Source: Rhizobacter sp. (GTDB lineage: Bacteria > Pseudomonadota > Gammaproteobacteria > Burkholderiales > Burkholderiaceae_C). From it: a stretch of DNA of 64,000 nt. The notes under the pieces are model-generated. The model searched no databases. It was not told where the DNA came from and was given only the letters and a program-made list of their open reading frames with translations. Shown here one piece after another: positions 50,368 to 60,588 of this stretch. A program made the position numbers and the translations under genes. Position 1 is the stretch's first letter; every line of letters begins with the position of its first letter. The stretch covers positions 36,077-100,076 of the forward strand of contig JANXWV010000119.1 in the NCBI GenBank assembly GCA_025350965.1, given 5' to 3'.

Positions 50368-50859
50368 CTACCGAACCGGCTCGATCACCATTTCGCTCTT
50401 CACCGAGTTGGCGATGTAGCACTCTTCATGCGCCTTGTGGTGCAGCGCGTCGAGCTCATCCGACGTGGGCAGGTGCTCGCCGGAAAACACGGCCTTCGGG
50501 CGCAGCGTGACGCGGGTGACGGCCATGCGGCCTTCGGCATTCCGAGACATCACACCCACGGCTGAGTCGGCATAGTGGTCGACGATGAAACGGCGCTTCC
50601 CCGCAATCGACAGGAACCACAGCATGTGGCAACTCGCAATTGCCGCGACAAAGGCTTCTTCGGGGTCGACCGCGCTCGCGTCCGACATCGGCAGGGGCAC
50701 CGAGTGCGGTGACGACGAGCCCGGCACTTCAGCGCCACCGTCGAAGCGCATCACGTGGCGGCGGCTGTACCGGTTGGAGGCGAAGTCCTGCCCGTCGCGC
50801 GACCACACCACTTCGGCGCCGTATTCGTTGGCGGGGTGGACTGCGGGGTCGGTGCTCAC
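50368..50859 (-). CDS. OsmC/Ohr-family protein
   Basis: The 163-residue protein has the OsmC fold pattern: [56 protein letters not shown] with the first redox Cys, and [19 protein letters not shown] with the second Cys. Members reduce organic hydroperoxides. The spacing and HMLWFL motif point to the OsmC-like subgroup rather than Ohr proper. It overlaps coaX by 4 bp and is the last gene of the unit. Confidence 0.92.
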
Positions 50860-51623
50860 AGCGCCAACCGGTGCGATTGCAGTTGCAGCAGGCCGTCGAA
50901 GATCAGCGTGTCCACCGTCTCGAAGGCCAGGTCGGTGATCGGCGCCAGCTTCACCGCCGCACCGCCGGTCATGATGAGCGCCGGCGCCTCGCCGGTGCGC
51001 GCGAGCAGCTTGCGGTGCATGCGTTCGACGGCGCCGGCCATGGCGTCGGCGCCACCGCTCATCAGCGCGTCACTGGTGTTGGTGGGGAATTCGGCCACCT
51101 CGCCGGTGGGCGCCTTCAGCCCGGCGGTGCCCATCTCGAGCGCACGCAGCATCAAACCGAAGCCCGGCAGGATGAGGCCCCCGAGGAAGCGGCCGCTCGC
51201 ATCGAGCGCATCGACCGTGACCGCTGTGCCCACCATCACCACCAGCGCCGGCCGCGCCGGGCCCTGCGCGAGCACGCGCTGGCGCGCGCCGATGAGCGCG
51301 ACCCAGCGGTCCACACCGAGCCGGCCGGGGTGATCGTAGCCATTGACCACGCCACACGCCTGCGCGCTCGACGCCACCCACCGCGGCTCGACATCCCACA
51401 GTTCGAGCTGCTCTTCGACGCGGCGCTTCACCGCCTCGCCGGCCACCACGCAGCCCAGCACACTGCCCGGTGCCGCCAGCGCGCGCCATTCGGCCTCGGC
51501 CAGGTTGTCGATGGTTTCGAGGAACACCGCGCCCTGATTGAGCAGGCGTGCGCCGGGCACCGGGGCGCTGTATTGGGCCCACTTCAAGCGGGTGTTGCCG
51601 ATGTCGATCGCGAGAAAAGTCAT
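50856..51623 (-). CDS. coaX: Type III pantothenate kinase
   Basis: The 255-residue enzyme starts [18 protein letters not shown] (phosphate-binding DIGNTR) and has [48 protein letters not shown] and [11 protein letters not shown], the pattern of CoaX of the ASKHA fold. It performs the first step of coenzyme A synthesis, has no feedback inhibition by CoA and typically needs a monovalent cation. In most betaproteobacteria birA precedes it; here a gene of unknown function (4-bp overlap) takes that place. Confidence 0.95.
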
Positions 51624-52270
51624 GTGGGCACTGGGGCGCTCGTGCGCCCTTCCAGCAAGTCGCGCACGCGTCGCAGGGTTTGCGCAGCAGCCAGCGGGCG
51701 GGGCGGCCGGGCGATGCGCTGCTCGACTTCGTCGAGCAGACCCGCCAGTTCTTCGCGGGTGCGCGCTCGGCGCAGGCGCAGCAGCGTCAGCGAGCCGGCC
51801 ACCGGCGCGACGCTGCGTACAGCGCGCAACAGGATCGCGCGGGCTTCGGTGACAGCGGGGTCGGCGGTCGAGGCGTCTTCATCGTCGGCATCTTGCGGCT
51901 CGGGCCAGGCTCCGGCCAGCGCGCGGTCCTCGAAGCGTGAATCGACCAAGACCGACTCGGGCGACAGGGTGCGCGAAGCCGGCAGCACCGAGTCGAGACT
52001 CGCGGGCACGGTGTCGGGCACCGGCAGCGGCAGGTCCACCTCGCGCAGCGCCAGGCCGACTGGCGCAGCGATCAGGCCGAGCAGCACGAGGTCGTCGAAA
52101 CAGGTGTCGGGCACGCCGGCCTGGATGGCCATGGTGCGCACTTCGGCTTCGCTGTGCTTGCCGTCAGCCAGGAACAGCACGGTGCGGTGGCGCTGGCTCA
52201 AGCGAAGCGCGCGGGTGCTCAGCTCGGTCTGGCCGGCGGCAGTCTTGATCGGATGCGGTGCTGCGTCCAA
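51620..52270 (-). CDS. Conserved hypothetical protein upstream of coaX
   Basis: The real gene probably starts at TTG 52270 ([29 protein letters not shown]), which has a strong GAGGAG site seven bases upstream; the track ORF runs on into Arg/Cys-rich nonsense. The 216-residue product has a conserved-looking N-terminal part ([38 protein letters not shown]), an acidic linker and a helical C-terminal part ([43 protein letters not shown]). No signal peptide. I do not know the family. Confidence 0.7.
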
Positions 52271-52421: not shown

Positions 52422-54125
52422 TCAGGCCGGCAAGGACTCTGCCAGCAGCATCGATGCCACCGGCGCCGCCGAGTCCGGCTCCGCCGCTGCGGGGCCTTGC
52501 AGCAACGCGCGCAGGGCCGTCCCGTCGACGGCCGGGTAGGCGCGCTGCGCGTCACGCAGCATGTCGGCCGCGAGCCGGTGCAGTTGAGCGGTCGAGGCGC
52601 GCAGGCGGGCGCGAAACTGAGCGTCGTCCAGCGTGTCCAGCAGGCTGCGGTTCAGCTCGGCGAACCACGGCAGCGCCGCCTGGTCGAGCATCACCGCCGG
52701 GTTGCGTTTCGCGCTGTGCGCCGACCACTCGCGCAGGAAGGCCTGCACCGCCAGGTTGAGCTGCTGGCACCGCGCCAGCTCGGTGCGCAAGTGCGCCAGG
52801 GCGCCCAGGTCGGTGAGCCGGTTCTGAAAGAACAGCTGCGACAGCACGCCCCAGTAGTACGCGTAGTCCCAGATGACCTTTGCGGGCAGCACCTCGGGGT
52901 CGCCGAACAGGCCGTACTGGTCGGTGTAGAGCGCCAGCGTGCTGTCGTAGAACGAGTGGTAGATCTGATCGAAGAGCTGGGCGTGCGCGCCCAGCGGGCG
53001 GCCGGCGCGGTCGAGCGCTATCAGCTCGGTGATGTAGGTATTGCCGATGGCGATGAAGTCGCTGCCAGGCGAATAGAACGGGTCGAGGAACAGGCCGGCC
53101 TCGCCGGTGAGCGCCCAACGCTCGGCCGAGAACACCTGCTTGCAGCCGTACGAAAAGTTGCGAAAGAACGCGAAGTCCTGCAGCAGGTGGCGCTTCGGAT
53201 CGAGCTCGTCGAACAGGCGCGGCTGGTACTGCTCGAACCACGCCATCGCCTTGTCGAAGGTGTCGAAGCGTTCCAGCGGGTGCACGCGCGGGTCGGCCAC
53301 GATGCCCACCGAGTGCGAGCCCGACGCCAGCGGGATCAGCCACACCCAGTAGCCGTTGCCGACGAGGTGGTTGGTCGACAGCCACCGCGCACGCGGCGTG
53401 CAACGTGCCTGCCAGGCCGGGTTGTCGGACCACTCGTCGATCACGATGCGGCTCTGGATGCGGAACCACACCGCGTTGCACGTGTGCGCATTCGGCCGCG
53501 CCAGCCCGAGCTGGCGCTTGATCAGCCCGGCGCGGCCGCAGGCGTCGACCACCCAGCGCGCGCTGAACGCATGCGCCACGCCGGCGCGCTCAGCCGTGAC
53601 ACGGTGTTCACCGCCATCCGCCGCCAGCACGATGCTGCGCGCCAGCGTCGCATCCATGAAGCGCACGCCGCGCCGCAGCGCTTCTTCGCCGAGAAAGTTC
53701 TCGAAGATGCCGCGGTCGAGCTGGTAGCTGGTGACCGCCAGCGGCGTGCTCGCGCCGATCTCGGTGACCTGGTCGATGTCGCGCCGGCCTTCGCTGAAGA
53801 AGAAGCGGAAGCCGAACTTCTTCAGCTGCGACGCCTCGAGGTGGCTCTTCAGGCCGAGCACCTCGCTGAAATAGTGCGCGCCGATCTCGACTGTCGATTC
53901 ACCGACCTTGTGCGCCGCTTCGGGCACCGGGTGGCTGCGGCGCTCGAGCACGAGCACGTCGATGTCGGCGAAGCGCCGCTTCAGTTGCAGCGCAAGCGAC
54001 AGGCCGGCCAGGCCGCCGCCGACGATGACGACATCGTGGTGTTGATGCGTTGCGGCGTCAGCAACGCCGTGCATGCGCTCATTCGTCGGCTCATTCATCG
54101 GCGGCTCACTCAGCGGCTCACTCAT
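52422..54125 (-). CDS. FAD-dependent halogenase-like monooxygenase
   Basis: The protein of about 567 residues has the FAD dinucleotide motif VVIVGGGLAGLSLALQL, PEAAHKVGESTVEIGAHYF typical of flavin-dependent halogenase-like proteins (GESxx), GYWVWLIPLASGSHSVGIV and GEAGLFLDPFYSPGSDFIAIGN. A true tryptophan halogenase has WxWxIP; here VWLIPL keeps the pattern only loosely, so halogenation is unproven and hydroxylation is possible. The start is uncertain: ATG 54125 overlaps the upstream gene, while ATG 54074 gives MHGVADAATHQHHDVVIVG without the repetitive MSEPLSEPPMNEP leader. Last of three co-directional genes with two KS-fold proteins, which suggests modification of a polyketide or aryl-polyene-like product. 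Confidence 0.85.
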   Translation of the reverse strand: MSEPLSEPPMNEPTNERMHGVADAATHQHHDVVIVGGGLAGLSLALQLKRRFADIDVLVLERRSHPVPEAAHKVGESTVEIGAHYFSEVLGLKSHLEASQLKKFGFRFFFSEGRRDIDQVTEIGASTPLAVTSYQLDRGIFENFLGEEALRRGVRFMDATLARSIVLAADGGEHRVTAERAGVAHAFSARWVVDACGRAGLIKRQLGLARPNAHTCNAVWFRIQSRIVIDEWSDNPAWQARCTPRARWLSTNHLVGNGYWVWLIPLASGSHSVGIVADPRVHPLERFDTFDKAMAWFEQYQPRLFDELDPKRHLLQDFAFFRNFSYGCKQVFSAERWALTGEAGLFLDPFYSPGSDFIAIGNTYITELIALDRAGRPLGAHAQLFDQIYHSFYDSTLALYTDQYGLFGDPEVLPAKVIWDYAYYWGVLSQLFFQNRLTDLGALAHLRTELARCQQLNLAVQAFLREWSAHSAKRNPAVMLDQAALPWFAELNRSLLDTLDDAQFRARLRASTAQLHRLAADMLRDAQRAYPAVDGTALRALLQGPAAAEPDSAAPVASMLLAESLPA

Positions 54126-54999
54126 CGGCACATTCATCGGCGCAGTATGAGCGTTCGTCCCGCAGCGCCCGCACGCTGACGTGCAATGCCATTTGCGCGG
54201 ACAAAGGCAGTGCGAGCGCATCGCTGCACGCGCGCGCCAGCGCTTCGAAGAGCGGCAGCGCGTCGGCCATCGCATTGCCTTGCAGCGCTTGGGCCGCCGG
54301 TGACCGCAACGCGGCGCCCTCGCACGCACCGGGCTGCAGGGCCCATTCGAGGCTCGCCACGCTGCGCTCGTTGCGCTCGGGCGAGAGCACCAGCGCCACC
54401 GCCAGCACGCCCTCGCTCGCGGTGACCGAGGCGAGCGGGCCGCAGGCCGCCATGTCGTAGCCCACCAGCAGCACCGGGCGCGACTCGGCCGCACATTGCA
54501 CCAGTGCTTCCAGCAGGCCTGCCGCGAAGCTGCACAGATGCGCGCTGACAGCGGTGCTGGCCTGCATGCAGCCGGCACTCATGGTCCAGTGGCCCGACGC
54601 GGCGTTGTGCACCGAGTTGTGGAACTTCGTCGGCGACAGCAGGAGCGGCGTGTTCACGAGCGTGCCGCACACATAGTCGGTCAGGCCCAGGTCACCGTGC
54701 GCCGAGGTGAACACGCTGAGCAGCGCGGCCGGCGGAGTGCCCGCAAGTGCCACCGCGTGCTGCGCCACTTCAAGCGCGAGCGCCACCGTGTCGGGTGCGC
54801 GGCGGCGCTCGGCCGCGGGCAGCAACTCGGCGAGGGGCCGGCGCAGCGGCGGCGTCACCGCCTCGCCTTCGCCACGGAACGCGGCACGCGCCACGCCCCA
54901 ACCCGGCAGCCCGGGCGACCACAGGGCGACGGCGTCGATGAACGCGGTGCGAGCGGCGTGCGCTGCCGGCGTCATGCCGCTGGTGATGCCACTCGTCAT
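54118..54999 (-). CDS. Beta-ketoacyl synthase-like chain-length-factor protein
   Basis: The 293-residue protein starts at ATG 54999, interlocked with the stop of the KS gene (TGATG). It resembles the N-terminal KS-like family seen next to aryl-polyene and xanthomonadin synthases: IDAVALWSPGLPGWG, LLSVFTSAHGDLGLTDYVCGTLV, SPTKFHNSVHNAASGHWTMSAGCMQASTAVSAH and a final EALARACSDALALPLSAQMALHVSVRAL. The active-site Cys of a working KS is not in a TACSS context, so it likely pairs with the upstream KS as a heterodimer partner. It overlaps the halogenase-like gene. Confidence 0.85.
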   Translation of the reverse strand: MTSGITSGMTPAAHAARTAFIDAVALWSPGLPGWGVARAAFRGEGEAVTPPLRRPLAELLPAAERRRAPDTVALALEVAQHAVALAGTPPAALLSVFTSAHGDLGLTDYVCGTLVNTPLLLSPTKFHNSVHNAASGHWTMSAGCMQASTAVSAHLCSFAAGLLEALVQCAAESRPVLLVGYDMAACGPLASVTASEGVLAVALVLSPERNERSVASLEWALQPGACEGAALRSPAAQALQGNAMADALPLFEALARACSDALALPLSAQMALHVSVRALRDERSYCADECADE

Positions 55000-56210
55000 G
55001 CCGCTCCACGCCCATCGCCACGGCCGAACACCAGCACGCAGTTCGTGCCGCCGAAGCCGAACGCGTGGGTCACTGCACGGCGCACATCGGCCTCGGCCGG
55101 GCGCAGGCGGATCTGCGGGCCGCAGGTGGCGTCGAGCGCTTCGCTGTTCACGGTGCCGGGCATCCACCCGGTCTCGATGGCGAGCAGGCTGAACACGGCA
55201 CCCAGAACGCCTGCCGCACCCAGCGTGTGGCCGGTGAAGCCCTTGGTCGAACTGGCATGCGTGTGCGGCGGGAAGGCGCGTGCCACCAGCGCCGCTTCGA
55301 CCTCGTCGTTCTTCGCGCTGGCGGTGCCGTGCAAGTGGATGAAATCGACATCGCCCGGCGCCACACTGGCACGCGCGAGTGCATCGGCCAACGCGCGTTC
55401 GGCGCCCGCGCCGCCGGGGTGCGGGGCCGACATGTGGTGGGCATCGCTGGCCTCGCCGTGGCCGAGCAACTGCAGCGGCCCGGCGCCGCGTTCGAGCAAT
55501 GCGTAGCCGGCCGCTTCGCCGAGGTTGATGCCGCAGCGTTGCGCATCGAACGGGCGGCAGCGCTCGGCGGCCACGAGCTGCAGCGCATTGAAGCCGAACA
55601 GCACGCTGCCGCACAGCGAGTCAACGCCCCCGACCACCACGGCGTCGGCCAGGTTCAGGCGCAGCAGGCGCTCGGCCGCCGCGAACGCCTTGGCGCTGGA
55701 CGAACAGGCGGTCGACACCGTCAGGCACGAGCCGGCCAGGTTCAGCGCGTGCTGCACGAAGGCGGCCAGCGAATGCGGGGTGTGCACATCGTGACGCTGC
55801 ATGTGCGCCGGGAAGCGGCCTTCGCCGTCGAGCGTTCGGTAGGCCTCTTCGGTTGCGTGGATGCTGGACGTGGACGTGCCCATCACCACCGCCACCCGCG
55901 CCGCGCCGTAGCGCTGTCGTGCAGTGGCGGCCGCGCCCGCAAAACCATCGGCATGCAAGCCGAGCCAGGCGAGGCGGTTGTTGCGGCAATCCCAATGCGC
56001 CAGTGCGTCGGGCAGTGGCACGTCCAGCCCGTCGACCTGGCCGACCCAGGTGGCCAGCGGCGCGTGGCTGAAGCGGTTGGGGCGCAGGCCACTGCGGTGT
56101 GACTGGACTGCCTGCAGCAGCGCCGCCTTGCCACGGCCGACCGCCGACGTGGCGGTGTAGGCGCTGACGCAAACGGGGGTGACTTGAGCGGGGTTGATGC
56201 GAGGGAGCAC
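54996..56210 (-). CDS. Beta-ketoacyl-ACP synthase (FabF-like, with full Cys-His-His triad)
   Basis: The 404-residue enzyme is read from GTG 56210 (MLPRINPAQVTPVCVSAYTATSAVG), since upstream codons look non-coding; no clear ribosome site supports this. Catalytic residues are visible: Cys in LTVSTACSSSAKAF, His in DFIHLHGTASAKNDEVE and His in STKGFTGHTLGAAGVLG, with the C-terminal AFGFGGTNCVLVFG. It condenses malonyl-type extender units with an acyl-ACP. With the chain-length-factor-like and halogenase-like genes it forms a small operon; no ACP, ketoreductase or dehydratase is adjacent, unlike complete aryl-polyene clusters. Confidence 0.92.
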   Translation of the reverse strand: MLPRINPAQVTPVCVSAYTATSAVGRGKAALLQAVQSHRSGLRPNRFSHAPLATWVGQVDGLDVPLPDALAHWDCRNNRLAWLGLHADGFAGAAATARQRYGAARVAVVMGTSTSSIHATEEAYRTLDGEGRFPAHMQRHDVHTPHSLAAFVQHALNLAGSCLTVSTACSSSAKAFAAAERLLRLNLADAVVVGGVDSLCGSVLFGFNALQLVAAERCRPFDAQRCGINLGEAAGYALLERGAGPLQLLGHGEASDAHHMSAPHPGGAGAERALADALARASVAPGDVDFIHLHGTASAKNDEVEAALVARAFPPHTHASSTKGFTGHTLGAAGVLGAVFSLLAIETGWMPGTVNSEALDATCGPQIRLRPAEADVRRAVTHAFGFGGTNCVLVFGRGDGRGAA

Positions 56211-56322
56211 GGTACGGCGCGGTGCGTGTCTGGGCGAGATGGCCCACGAACGCGACGCTGTCGATTGTAGGAACGGCCCCGTTTCCCTGCACGAGCGCTG
56301 GCGATACACTGAGGGCACGCAG

Positions 56323-56338
56323 TTGACGTATACGTCAA
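56323..56338. promoter_or_regulatory. Perfect 16-bp palindrome, probable operator of ppk2-icmF
   Basis: TTGACGTATACGTCAA is fully self-complementary and lies 27 bp before the PPK2 start, in the 154-bp region shared with the divergent KS operon. From memory it resembles the ACGTxxACGT sites of MerR-family LiuR-type regulators of branched-chain acyl-CoA catabolism, which would fit icmF. No such regulator is encoded in the window. Confidence 0.6.
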
Positions 56339-56364
56339 TCAGCATCCCACCCACCGGAGACGAT

Positions 56365-57204
56365 GTGGCAAAGACCCCACCCGCATTGGCGGACCAGCAA
56401 TACAGCGCCGCGTTGTCGGGTAAGGGCAAGCCCTTCGACCTGACCCGATTCGACCCGGGCGCCAAGCCCTTTTCAAGCGGTGACAAGGCCGCCGACAAGC
56501 TTGCGACCGAGGCCCTGGCGCACGAACTCGACGTGCTGCAGAACTTGTTCTATGCCGACAAGCGCTTCAAGCTGCTGGTGGTGCTGCAAGGCACCGACAC
56601 CAGCGGCAAGGACGGCACCATTCGCGGCGTCTTCGGGCAGATGAGCGCACTCGGCGTGCACACCGTCGGCTGGAAGGCGCCCAGCGAGAACGAGCGCGCG
56701 CACGACTACCTGTGGCGCATTCACGGCCAGGTGCCACCGGCCGGCGAGGTGATGGTGTTCAACCGCAGCCACTACGAAGACGTGCTCGTGCCGGTGGTGA
56801 ACCAAACGATCACGCCCGAGCAGACGAAGCAGCGCTACGCCCACATCAACGACTTCGAGCGCCTGCTCTGCGAGACCGGCACCGTGGTGTGCAAGTTCAT
56901 GTTGCACATCTCGAAAGAAGAGCAGCGCATCCGTTTGCAGGACCGGCTCGACGACCCGACCAAACGCTGGAAGTTCGCGCTCGGCGACATCGAGGCCCGC
57001 AAGCACTGGGACGCGTATCAGCAGGCCTACAGCAACGCGATTGCCGCCACCGGTACGCCATGGGCACCGTGGACCATTGTGCCGGCCGACTCGAAGCTGC
57101 ACCGCAACCTGATGATCGCCACGGCCCTGAAGCAGACCTTTGATGCCCTGAAGTTGCGGTACCCGCCCGACGACCCTGCGCTGAAGAAGATCAAGGTCGT
57201 CTGA
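56365..57204 (+). CDS. PPK2-family polyphosphate kinase
   Basis: The 279-residue protein is read from GTG 56365 (MAKTPPALADQQY) behind CGGAGAC; the track ORF runs upstream through the operator. It shows the PPK2 motifs VVLQGTDTSGKDGTIRGVFGQM (Walker A-like), GEVMVFNRSHYEDVLVPVV (Walker B region) and the lid RIRLQDRLDDPTKRWKFALGD. These enzymes use polyphosphate to phosphorylate nucleotides. The PPK2 class (AMP- or ADP-phosphorylating) cannot be called by eye. It lies 21 bp upstream of icmF and is likely co-transcribed; the purpose of this pairing is unknown. Confidence 0.93.
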   Translation: MAKTPPALADQQYSAALSGKGKPFDLTRFDPGAKPFSSGDKAADKLATEALAHELDVLQNLFYADKRFKLLVVLQGTDTSGKDGTIRGVFGQMSALGVHTVGWKAPSENERAHDYLWRIHGQVPPAGEVMVFNRSHYEDVLVPVVNQTITPEQTKQRYAHINDFERLLCETGTVVCKFMLHISKEEQRIRLQDRLDDPTKRWKFALGDIEARKHWDAYQQAYSNAIAATGTPWAPWTIVPADSKLHRNLMIATALKQTFDALKLRYPPDDPALKKIKVV

Positions 57205-57225: not shown

Positions 57226-60200
57226 ATGCCCATGACCGACCTGTCTGCCGAATTCAAGGCCCTGGCCGCCTACCGCCCCAAGCACAAGGTGCGCTTCGTC
57301 ACGGCTGCGAGCCTGTTCGACGGGCACGACGCCGCCATCAACATCATGCGGCGCATCCTGCAAGGCATGGGCGCCGAGGTCGTGCACCTCGGGCACAACC
57401 GCTCGGTCGATGAAGTCGTCACGGCCGCCTTGCAGGAAGACGCGCAAGGCATCGCCATCAGCAGCTATCAGGGCGGCCACGTCGAGTACTTCAAGTACAT
57501 GGTCGACCTGCTCAAGGCGCGAGGCGGTGCGCACATCCAGGTGTTCGGCGGCGGCGGCGGGGTGATCGTGGGCAGCGAAATCGCCGAGCTGCAAGGTTAC
57601 GGCGTGACCCGCATCTACAGCCCCGAAGACGGCCAGCGCATGGGCCTGGCCGGCATGATCGGCGAGATGGTGATGCGGTGTGACCACGACCTGTCGGCAC
57701 ATGCGCCGAAGGCGTTGGCCGCAATCCAGGGCAGAACCGAAGCGCACTGGCGCGCGTTGGCGCAACTCATCACCGCGCTCGAGAACGGCGCGGTCAGCGA
57801 CGCGCTCAAGGCGGCCCTGCACACCGAGGCCGCCGCCCGCAAGACGCCCGTGCTCGGAATCACCGGCACCGGCGGGGCGGGCAAGTCGAGCCTGACCGAT
57901 GAGCTGATCCGCCGCCTGCGGCTCGACCAGTTCGATGCGCGGCACATCGCCGTCATCAGCATCGACCCGAGCCGGCGCAAGAGCGGTGGCGCGCTGCTCG
58001 GCGACCGGATTCGCATGAACGCCATTCAACCCTGGGCGAAGCCCCTGCTCCCGCCTTCCCCCCCTGGGGAAAGGCCGGGATGGGGGTCTGGTGGTGACAC
58101 CGGCCAACGCGTCTTCATGCGGTCGCTGGCCACGCGCGACTTCGGCAGCGAACTCAGCCAGGCCCTGCCCGACGTGCTGGCGGCCGTCAAGGCCAGCGGC
58201 AGCTTCGACCTCGTCATCGTCGAGACCTCCGGCATCGGCCAGGGCGACGCGGCCATCGTGCCGCTGGTCGACGTGCCCATGTACGTGATGACGCCCGAGT
58301 TCGGCGCCGCCAGCCAGCTGGAGAAGATCGACATGCTCGACTTCGCCGAGTTCGTGGCGATCAACAAGTTCGACCGCAAGGGCGCGGCCGACGCGCTGCG
58401 CGATGTGGCCAAGCAGGTGCAACGCAACAAGGAAGCGTGGACCACGAAGACCGAGGAGATGCCGGTCTTCGGCACCATGGCCAGCCGCTTCAACGACGAC
58501 GGCGTGACCGCCCTCTACCAGGCGCTGCTGCCGCGCCTGGCCGCCCTCGGCATGCCGGTGGTCGATGGCATGTTGCCGCGCGCCGCCACCCGCCACAGCA
58601 CGCACCAGGTGCCCATCGTGCCGGGTGCGCGCGTGCGCTACCTGGCCGACATTGCCGACACCGTGCGCGGCTACAAGAAGCATTCGCTCGCGCAAGCCCG
58701 ACTCGCCCGCGAAGTGCAGCAACTGCGCGCGTCGGCGGCCATGCTGGTGGTCGACAAGCCCGACCGTTCACGGGCGGCCGAGGCCGTGGTGAACCTGGCC
58801 GAACAGCGCGAGGCGCGCCAAGACCCGCTGAGCGCGAAGCTGCTGGCCATGTGGCCCGATATGCGCAAGGCCTACGCCGGCGACGAGTACGTGGTGAAGA
58901 TCCGCGACAAGGAGATCCGCACCGACCTGGTCTACACGACGCTGTCGGGAAGCAAGGTGCGCAAGGTCGCGCTGCCGACCTTCGAGGACCACGGCGAACT
59001 CGTCAAGTGGCTGTTGCTGGACAACGTGCCGGGCTCGTTCCCCTACACCGCCGGCACCTTCGCCTTCAAGCGCGAAGGCGAAGACCCGACGCGCATGTTC
59101 GCCGGCGAGGGCGACGCCTTCCGCACGAACACGCGCTTCAAGCTGCTCAGCTCGGGCATGGCGGCCAAGCGCCTGAGCACCGCGTTCGACAGCGTCACGC
59201 TCTACGGCAACGACCCCGCCGTGCGGCCCGACATCTACGGCAAGGTCGGCAACTCGGGGGTGAGCATCGCCACCCTCGACGACATGAAGGTGCTGTACGG
59301 CGGCTTCGACCTGACGAATCCGGCCACGAGCGTGAGCATGACCATCAACGGCCCGGCGCCGACGATCCTGGCGATGTTCATGAACACCGCCATCGACCAG
59401 AACCTCGACAAGTTCAGGGCCGACAACCACCGCGAGCCCACGTCCGATGAGGCGCAGAAGATCACCGCCTGGGTGAAGCAGAACGTGCGCGGCACGGTGC
59501 AGGCCGACATCCTGAAAGAAGACCAGGGCCAGAACACCTGCATTTTCAGCACCGAGTTCAGCCTGAAGGTCATGGGCGACATCGCCGAGTACTTCGTGCA
59601 CCACCAGGTGCGCAACTTCTACTCGGTCTCGATCTCGGGTTATCACATCGCCGAAGCCGGGGCGAACCCGATCAGCCAGCTCGCGTTCACACTCAGCAAC
59701 GGCTTCACGTTCGTCGAAGCGTACCTCGCGCGCGGCATGCACATCGACGACTTCGCGCCGAACCTGTCGTTCTTCTTCAGCAACGGCATGGACCCGGAGT
59801 ACACGGTGCTGGGCCGTGTGGCGCGGCGCATCTGGGCGGTGGCGATGCGGGATCGCTATGGCGCCAATGAGCGCAGCCAGAAGCTGAAGTACCACGTGCA
59901 GACATCGGGCCGCAGCCTGCATGCGCAGGAGATCCAGTTCAACGACATCCGCACCACGCTGCAGGCGCTGATTGCGATCTACGACAACTGCAACAGCCTG
60001 CACACGAATGCGTTCGACGAGGCCATCACCACCCCGACCGAAGACTCGGTGCGCCGCGCAATGGCGATCCAGCTCATCATCAACCGCGAGTGGGGCCTGG
60101 CGAAGAACGAGAACCCGAACCAGGGCGCTTTCATCATCGACGAGCTGACCGAGATCGTCGAGGAAGCGGTGCTGGCCGAGTTCGAGAAGATCGCCGAGCG

Positions 60201-60588
60201 CGGCGGCGTGCTGGGTGCCATGGAGACCGGCTACCAGCGCGGCAAGATCCAGGAAGAGTCGATGCACTACGAGATGCTGAAGCACACCGGCGAGTACCCG
60301 ATCATCGGCGTCAACACCTTCCGCAACCCGCACGGTGATGCCGCGCCCGACACGCTGGAACTGGCGCGCTCGACCGATGACGAGAAGCAGTCGCAACTGC
60401 GGCGGCTGGCCGAGTTCCACACGCTGCACGCGAACGAAGCACCGGCAATGCTGGCGCGGCTGAAGCAGGCCGTCATCGAGAGCCGCAACGTGTTCGAGGT
60501 GCTGATGGACGCGGTGCGCTGCTGCTCGCTCGGGCAGATCACCGATGCGCTGTTCGAGGTGGGCGGGCAGTACCGAAGGAGCATGTAG
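57226..60588 (+). CDS. icmF: Fused isobutyryl-CoA mutase IcmF (B12-domain, GTPase, mutase)
   Basis: The 1120-residue protein has the IcmF order: B12-binding domain (about 20-160; [18 protein letters not shown] with the cobalt His, [19 protein letters not shown]), MeaB-like GTPase chaperone (about 200-480; [41 protein letters not shown]) and TIM-barrel mutase (about 560-1100; [52 protein letters not shown]). It interconverts isobutyryl- and n-butyryl-CoA with self-contained reactivation. Oddity: about 20 extra residues (272-292) in the GTPase are encoded by an interspersed-repeat-like sequence. It may thus alter chaperone function. Confidence 0.95.
58041..58093. repeat. Interspersed repeat inserted in frame within icmF
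   Basis: CCTTCCCC-CCCT-GGGGAAAGG lies inside the GTPase part of icmF, followed by CCGGGATGGGGG. The translation [12 protein letters not shown] is the typical read-through of a Proteobacterial intergenic palindrome (compare the VTPSPSGRGWG read-through of the repeat at 26-46). The frame is kept on both sides. Confidence 0.65.

Follow-up and report, generated by a model that had tools for sequence, protein, structure and literature searches.

The stretch of DNA analyzed here (the window) comprises 64,000 nucleotides from a Rhizobacter sp. (GenBank assembly GCA_025350965.1, contig JANXWV010000119.1, positions 36,077 to 100,076). Its minus strand encodes, in this order, a β-ketoacyl-acyl carrier protein (ACP) synthase (KS), a chain-length factor (CLF) and a flavoenzyme, hereafter the trio:

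54996..56210, minus strand: KS, 404 amino acids, ApeO-type β-ketoacyl-ACP synthase (type B), with Cys169-His294-His328.
54118..54999, minus strand: CLF, about 294 amino acids, ApeC-type half-size chain-length factor (PF13723) without an active-site Cys.
52422..54137, minus strand: flavoenzyme, 571 amino acids from the first Met, flavin-dependent halogenase-like (PF04820), with a C-terminal helical extension.

A preliminary description of the locus, made from the sequence alone, had called these genes interlocked, and so they are: the KS stop and the CLF start share ATGA, and the ATG of the flavoenzyme lies inside the last CLF codons. Dozens of genomes have the order KS-CLF-flavoenzyme, so the arrangement is not due to chance. 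No ACP, ketoreductase (KR) or dehydratase (DH) gene adjoins the operon.

The first two genes encode a condensing pair of the ApeO/ApeC kind. The KS scored 472 bits against NCBIfam PRK09185 (cut-off 407), and its best Protein Data Bank (PDB) matches were the ApeO chains 7f28_B and 6qsp_A of ApeO-ApeC structures. Its active-site Cys and both His are invariant among 77 aligned KSs, in keeping with the catalytically complete KS of the preliminary description. The partner, described there as KS-like without a normal active-site Cys, is a half-size CLF approximately two thirds the length of the KS, matching Pfam PF13723 with 83 bits. Its best PDB sequence matches were 7f28_A and 6qsp_B, and the top fold match of its AlphaFold model (predicted local distance difference test [pLDDT] score 88) was likewise ApeC, 6qsp_B (E 2.6e-12). 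The link to aryl-polyene and xanthomonadin clusters drawn at the outset is correct. When the CLF was aligned with the KS set in hhalign, the match fell on a natural KS-CLF fusion, so that the position of the missing Cys was not placed. Such a fusion is found in Piscinibacter sakaiensis (L109:7683-9794), where KS and CLF form one open reading frame (ORF) of ~700 amino acids with a Gly/Pro-rich linker.

The third gene product matched Pfam PF04820 (55.8 bits) and, in phmmer, the halogenases CmlS, PltA and ChlB4. It carries GGGLAG, a GxGxxG-type motif for flavin adenine dinucleotide (FAD), together with Lys107, W264-V-W-L-I-P269 and FLDPFYSPG. The alignment proposed in the preliminary description, aimed at the halogenase Lys and WxWxIP residues, found both: across 73 orthologs there is no variation in the Lys, in FLDPFYSPG or in the two Trp and the LIP of WxWLIP. 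The AlphaFold model (pLDDT 88) folds like CmlS, CtcP, PltM, PltA and Bmp2, with E values of about 1e-22 to 1e-20. With these enzymes it has in common the FAD fold, the catalytic Lys, WxWxIP and FxxPxxSxG; it differs in its ~20% identity to them, in the variant motif DPFYSPGSDFI and in a long C-terminal helical part, and is known here from sequence and model. The designation as a flavin-dependent halogenase-like enzyme thus holds by family, motifs and fold. We considered whether it might instead be a related flavin hydroxylase or dehydrogenase that acts on the pigment. The top fold match of the model, 3nix, is an uncharacterized flavoprotein annotated as a dehydrogenase, matches to NCBIfam models of named halogenases fell far under their cut-offs (69.6 versus 900 bits for CmlS), and the same genome encodes a second halogenase-like flavoenzyme. 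Against this stand the invariant catalytic motifs and the halogenase folds just named, as well as the correlation of gene with chemistry in characterized strains, which favors halogenation: a halogenase gene lies beside the KS-CLF pair in Xanthomonas, which brominates its pigment, and is absent from Lysobacter, which does not (PMC3691225). A nonhalogenating activity is the less likely assignment, and the third gene most likely encodes a phenol/carrier-type flavin halogenase acting on the aryl head group.

To place the trio in its genome, the draft assembly, which has 155 contigs totaling 4.3 Mb and is 88% complete, was searched throughout for the KS, CLF and halogenase families. Outside the window, these families were found on contig C80, at positions 16000-52000 (L011, L012). 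This region encodes a halogenase-family flavoenzyme, an FkbO/Hyg5-type chorismatase, an acyltransferase, a GT2 glycosyltransferase, a FabG-like ketoreductase and a dehydratase-like protein, followed in our list by a CLF, a KS, a polysaccharide deacetylase, a large exporter-like protein, a LolA-like protein, a second acyltransferase, an AMP-ligase and an ACP. The ketoreductase, dehydratase and exporter were named by sequence, by homology to other clusters and by position rather than by a Pfam match. No ApeR-like KS was seen on C80. Judged by its predicted products, this gene set is that of the xanthomonadin and arcuflavin clusters (PMC3691225, PMC3949708). The genome search suggested in the preliminary description thus yielded a full xanthomonadin-type cluster, and the statement that the three genes stand alone is correct locally but not genome-wide. 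The pathway genes do not form a single cluster, the trio lying on contig C33 and the remainder on C80; in Rhizobacter sp. Root404, the trio site and the cluster likewise lie on different megabase contigs.

A scan of genome contigs for the flavoenzyme yielded 80 loci. The trio sits among aryl-polyene genes in Hydrogenophaga, Rubrivivax, Piscinibacter sakaiensis and Steroidobacter, often with a second KS-CLF pair adjoining, and stands alone in Rhizobacter and Variovorax. In a sample of 301 genomes of the family, the flavoenzyme was present in 24 and the cluster exporter in 67; all 24 flavoenzyme-positive genomes had the exporter (hypergeometric P = 5e-18, uncorrected for phylogeny), and all 24 had an ApeO-type KS. 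A standalone trio or flavoenzyme occurs in 31 genomes, of which 30 encode the exporter elsewhere. The standalone KSs, 30 in number, form one clade of the KS tree with support 1.0. The genomes concerned do not come together in the flavoenzyme tree; a single detachment event would agree with the first tree but not with the second.

The case is sharpest in Variovorax. The five Variovorax clusters read (L224-L233) contain no KS-CLF, nor do those of Schlegelella koreensis (L236/L237), L234/L235 and L238; all of these clusters do have ACP, ligase, exporter, dehydratase and GT2 genes. The only ApeO-type KS in the genomes with such clusters is that of the trio, and in Variovorax sp. WS11 a distance of 2.93 Mb separates trio and cluster on a single contig of 4.2 Mb. 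Because the cluster lacks a KS-CLF and each genome has a single ApeO-type KS, the detached trio is, as far as sequence can tell, the only candidate condensing enzyme of the ApeO kind in Variovorax. A standard cluster elsewhere that lacks the functions of the trio had been named beforehand as the sign of ordinary dispersal. For the KS-CLF, this is the situation in Variovorax; it is not exactly that of the window genome, where C80 has its own KS-CLF and halogenase-like enzyme.

These data lead us to interpret the operon as a module that has become detached from a xanthomonadin/arcuflavin-type pathway for a yellow aryl-polyene pigment, the other genes of which are clustered on C80, a reading to which we assign a probability of about 0.83. 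It is a rearranged known pathway and not a new minimal one. Given the strict co-occurrence with the exporter, the relatives in which the trio lies inside the cluster, and Variovorax, which has no other KS-CLF, the trio is most likely a module for elongation and tailoring that acts in trans. In the scheme we propose, the C80 chorismatase would supply a hydroxybenzoate that the AMP-ligase would load onto the cluster ACP. KS-CLF heterodimers, including the ApeO/ApeC-type pair of the trio acting in trans, would extend this starter iteratively with malonyl units, and the cluster ketoreductase and dehydratase would make a conjugated double bond of every unit added. A lipid or glycolipid would then receive the chain, and transport to the outer membrane would fall to the exporter and LolA-like protein; the flavoenzyme would halogenate the aryl end. 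The action in trans, the product and the halogenation are what we infer from the genes and their distribution.

Several observations weigh against this interpretation. C80 carries its own KS-CLF, with a KS 50% identical to that of the window, so the trio may be redundant or specialized rather than required in the window genome. Two Rhizobacter metagenome-assembled genomes (MAGs; L050, L051) keep the flavoenzyme between the genes for polyphosphate kinase 2 (PPK2) and coaX, have lost the KS-CLF there, and possess the C80-like type of KS-CLF only; the flavoenzyme can thus be kept independently of the KS-CLF. Finally, in a draft that is 88% complete, C33 and C80 could be linked, though the corresponding loci are unlinked in Root404.

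Two of the alternatives concern what the second pair does. In the KS tree, the C80 KS (type A, support 0.85) separates from that of the trio (type B, support 0.26). At least two ApeO-type KSs occur in nine of the 301 genomes, among them all four sampled from the genus of the window, and in Rubrivivax, Piscinibacter and Hydrogenophaga both pairs are kept within one cluster. Types A and B may therefore differ in their job, such as chain length or use of a halogenated starter, and give two pigment variants. This would refine the detached-module interpretation rather than replace it, and we hold it tentatively, since many genomes have A alone or B alone, so that neither is obligatory, and since the case for specialization is drawn from sequence, with low tree support for group B. 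We would put it somewhat less strongly still that some Burkholderiales make aryl polyenes with two distinct KS-CLF heterodimers, and that one of these, encoded at an unlinked site in an operon with a halogenase, is a separately regulated module that sets chain length or halogenation in trans on the cluster ACP. Conversely, the trio could be a relic of relocation or acquisition that contributes little beside the C80 KS-CLF, as the loss of the KS-CLF from the same site in the two MAGs would suggest. This is unlikely: the motifs of the trio are intact, its frames are open, its identity to same-genus relatives is 71-76%, and the window CLF, unlike that of C80, retains a conserved Gln. Least probable, and very unlikely, is the reduced pathway with a housekeeping ACP that the preliminary description raised; such an operon would also borrow enzymes of fatty-acid synthesis and yield a small product of its own. 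It accounts for the operon having no adjoining ACP, KR or DH gene, but against it stand the strict co-occurrence with complete aryl-polyene clusters, membership of the trio in such clusters in other genomes, and the dedicated ACP, AMP-ligase, KR, DH, exporter and LolA genes in the trio's own genome. The other proposal made there, a satellite of a distant cluster, is supported by the cluster on C80, the co-occurrence and the position of the trio inside clusters of relatives.

The Gln in question lies in helix α6 of the CLF, within GLLEALVQC in the window protein, and 71 of 82 CLFs share it. In Lysobacter, Q166 of the CLF is reported to be essential (PMC3691225), and from its conservation we take the near-invariant Gln of the family to correspond to that residue. 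The C80 CLF has Leu at this position, and Ser is found in other type A CLFs from Rhizobacter; one or the other replacement occurs in the Rhizobacter-group type A CLFs at L011:13118-13681 (C80), L219, L221 and L255. At two-pair loci, one CLF of each pair set keeps the Gln. A rule that one of two CLFs per genome always does so was dropped, the only CLF found in the Rhizobacter MAG of L255 being type A without Gln. As this one draft genome was found with a Ser-type CLF only, a pair can probably function without the Gln.

The trio is surrounded as follows:

56211..56362: gap between the trio and the divergent PPK2 gene, intergenic; the operon promoter would be expected there.
51620..52270, minus strand: flanking gene without an assigned function, in the neighborhood, outside the module.
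50856..51623: coaX, genomic neighborhood, outside the module.

A promoter scan of 56211..56362 returned 0 promoter-like sites, and a σ70 consensus was not found; promoter and terminator scans together gave nothing informative for the operon. A Pfam search with the flanking gene at 51620..52270 gave no match, and a PADLOC run gave no result. The order PPK2, trio, flanking gene, coaX is common to Root404, and the neighbors of the window trio recur in Rhizobacter L049 and in L052. The neighbors in Variovorax differ (response regulator, histidine kinase, O-antigen ligase); they were rejected as candidate module genes because they are not shared with Rhizobacter. The genome of L052 (G304), which is close to that of the window, encodes, on contigs C152 and C85, two exporters of the aryl-polyene type as well as three complete ApeO-type KSs and one KS fragment, which suggests two aryl-polyene clusters. 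Adjoining the PPK2 gene (56194-57204), the window also contains a 1120-amino acid ORF (57226-60588) with cobalamin-binding, GTPase and mutase-like parts, identified by eye as apparently a fused isobutyryl-CoA mutase, IcmF-like.

Genome mining that relies on linkage would label the trio an orphan KS-CLF, or overlook the aryl-polyene condensing enzyme of Variovorax. There, the sole KS-CLF lies far from the remaining pathway and permits a direct genetic test. Genomes with two pairs allow the determinants of chain length and halogenation to be tested in a very widespread pigment class.

There are precedents for such KS-CLF pairs, for halogenases beside them and for unlinked loci. Neither a detached KS-CLF-halogenase unit that supplies the sole condensing enzyme nor a pathway with two KS-CLF pairs was found in the open-licence papers searched; that some genomes, including that of the window, keep two pairs is less expected. 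The closest relatives by sequence and fold are the ApeO-ApeC pairs of Xenorhabdus (6QSP) and Acinetobacter (7F28) (PMC8358021), which likewise combine a KS with a full triad and a half-size, Cys-less CLF encoded side by side. The window pair differs in being unlinked from its pathway, in the halogenase-like gene that follows it and in the second KS-CLF of the genome. In Lysobacter, the KS and the half-size CLF are both essential, and ORF17/ORF16 of that cluster and the xanthomonadin cluster of Xanthomonas share with our system the KS/half-CLF pair, chorismatase-type starter supply, GT2, LolA and exporter (PMC3691225). A halogenase beside the KS-CLF pair, as in the window trio, was drawn for Variovorax and Xanthomonas in 2013 (Figure 5 legend, PMC3691225); the Lysobacter and Xanthomonas pairs are drawn inside gene clusters, whereas the window trio is detached (PMC3691225). 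The arcuflavin pathway of Azoarcus is split over two unlinked arc loci, both needed for pigment, and includes the halogenase-like arcA (PMC3949708), so that a one-cluster layout is not obligatory. Each Azoarcus locus carries many genes (PMC3949708), whereas the detached piece in the window consists of KS, CLF and halogenase-like gene only.

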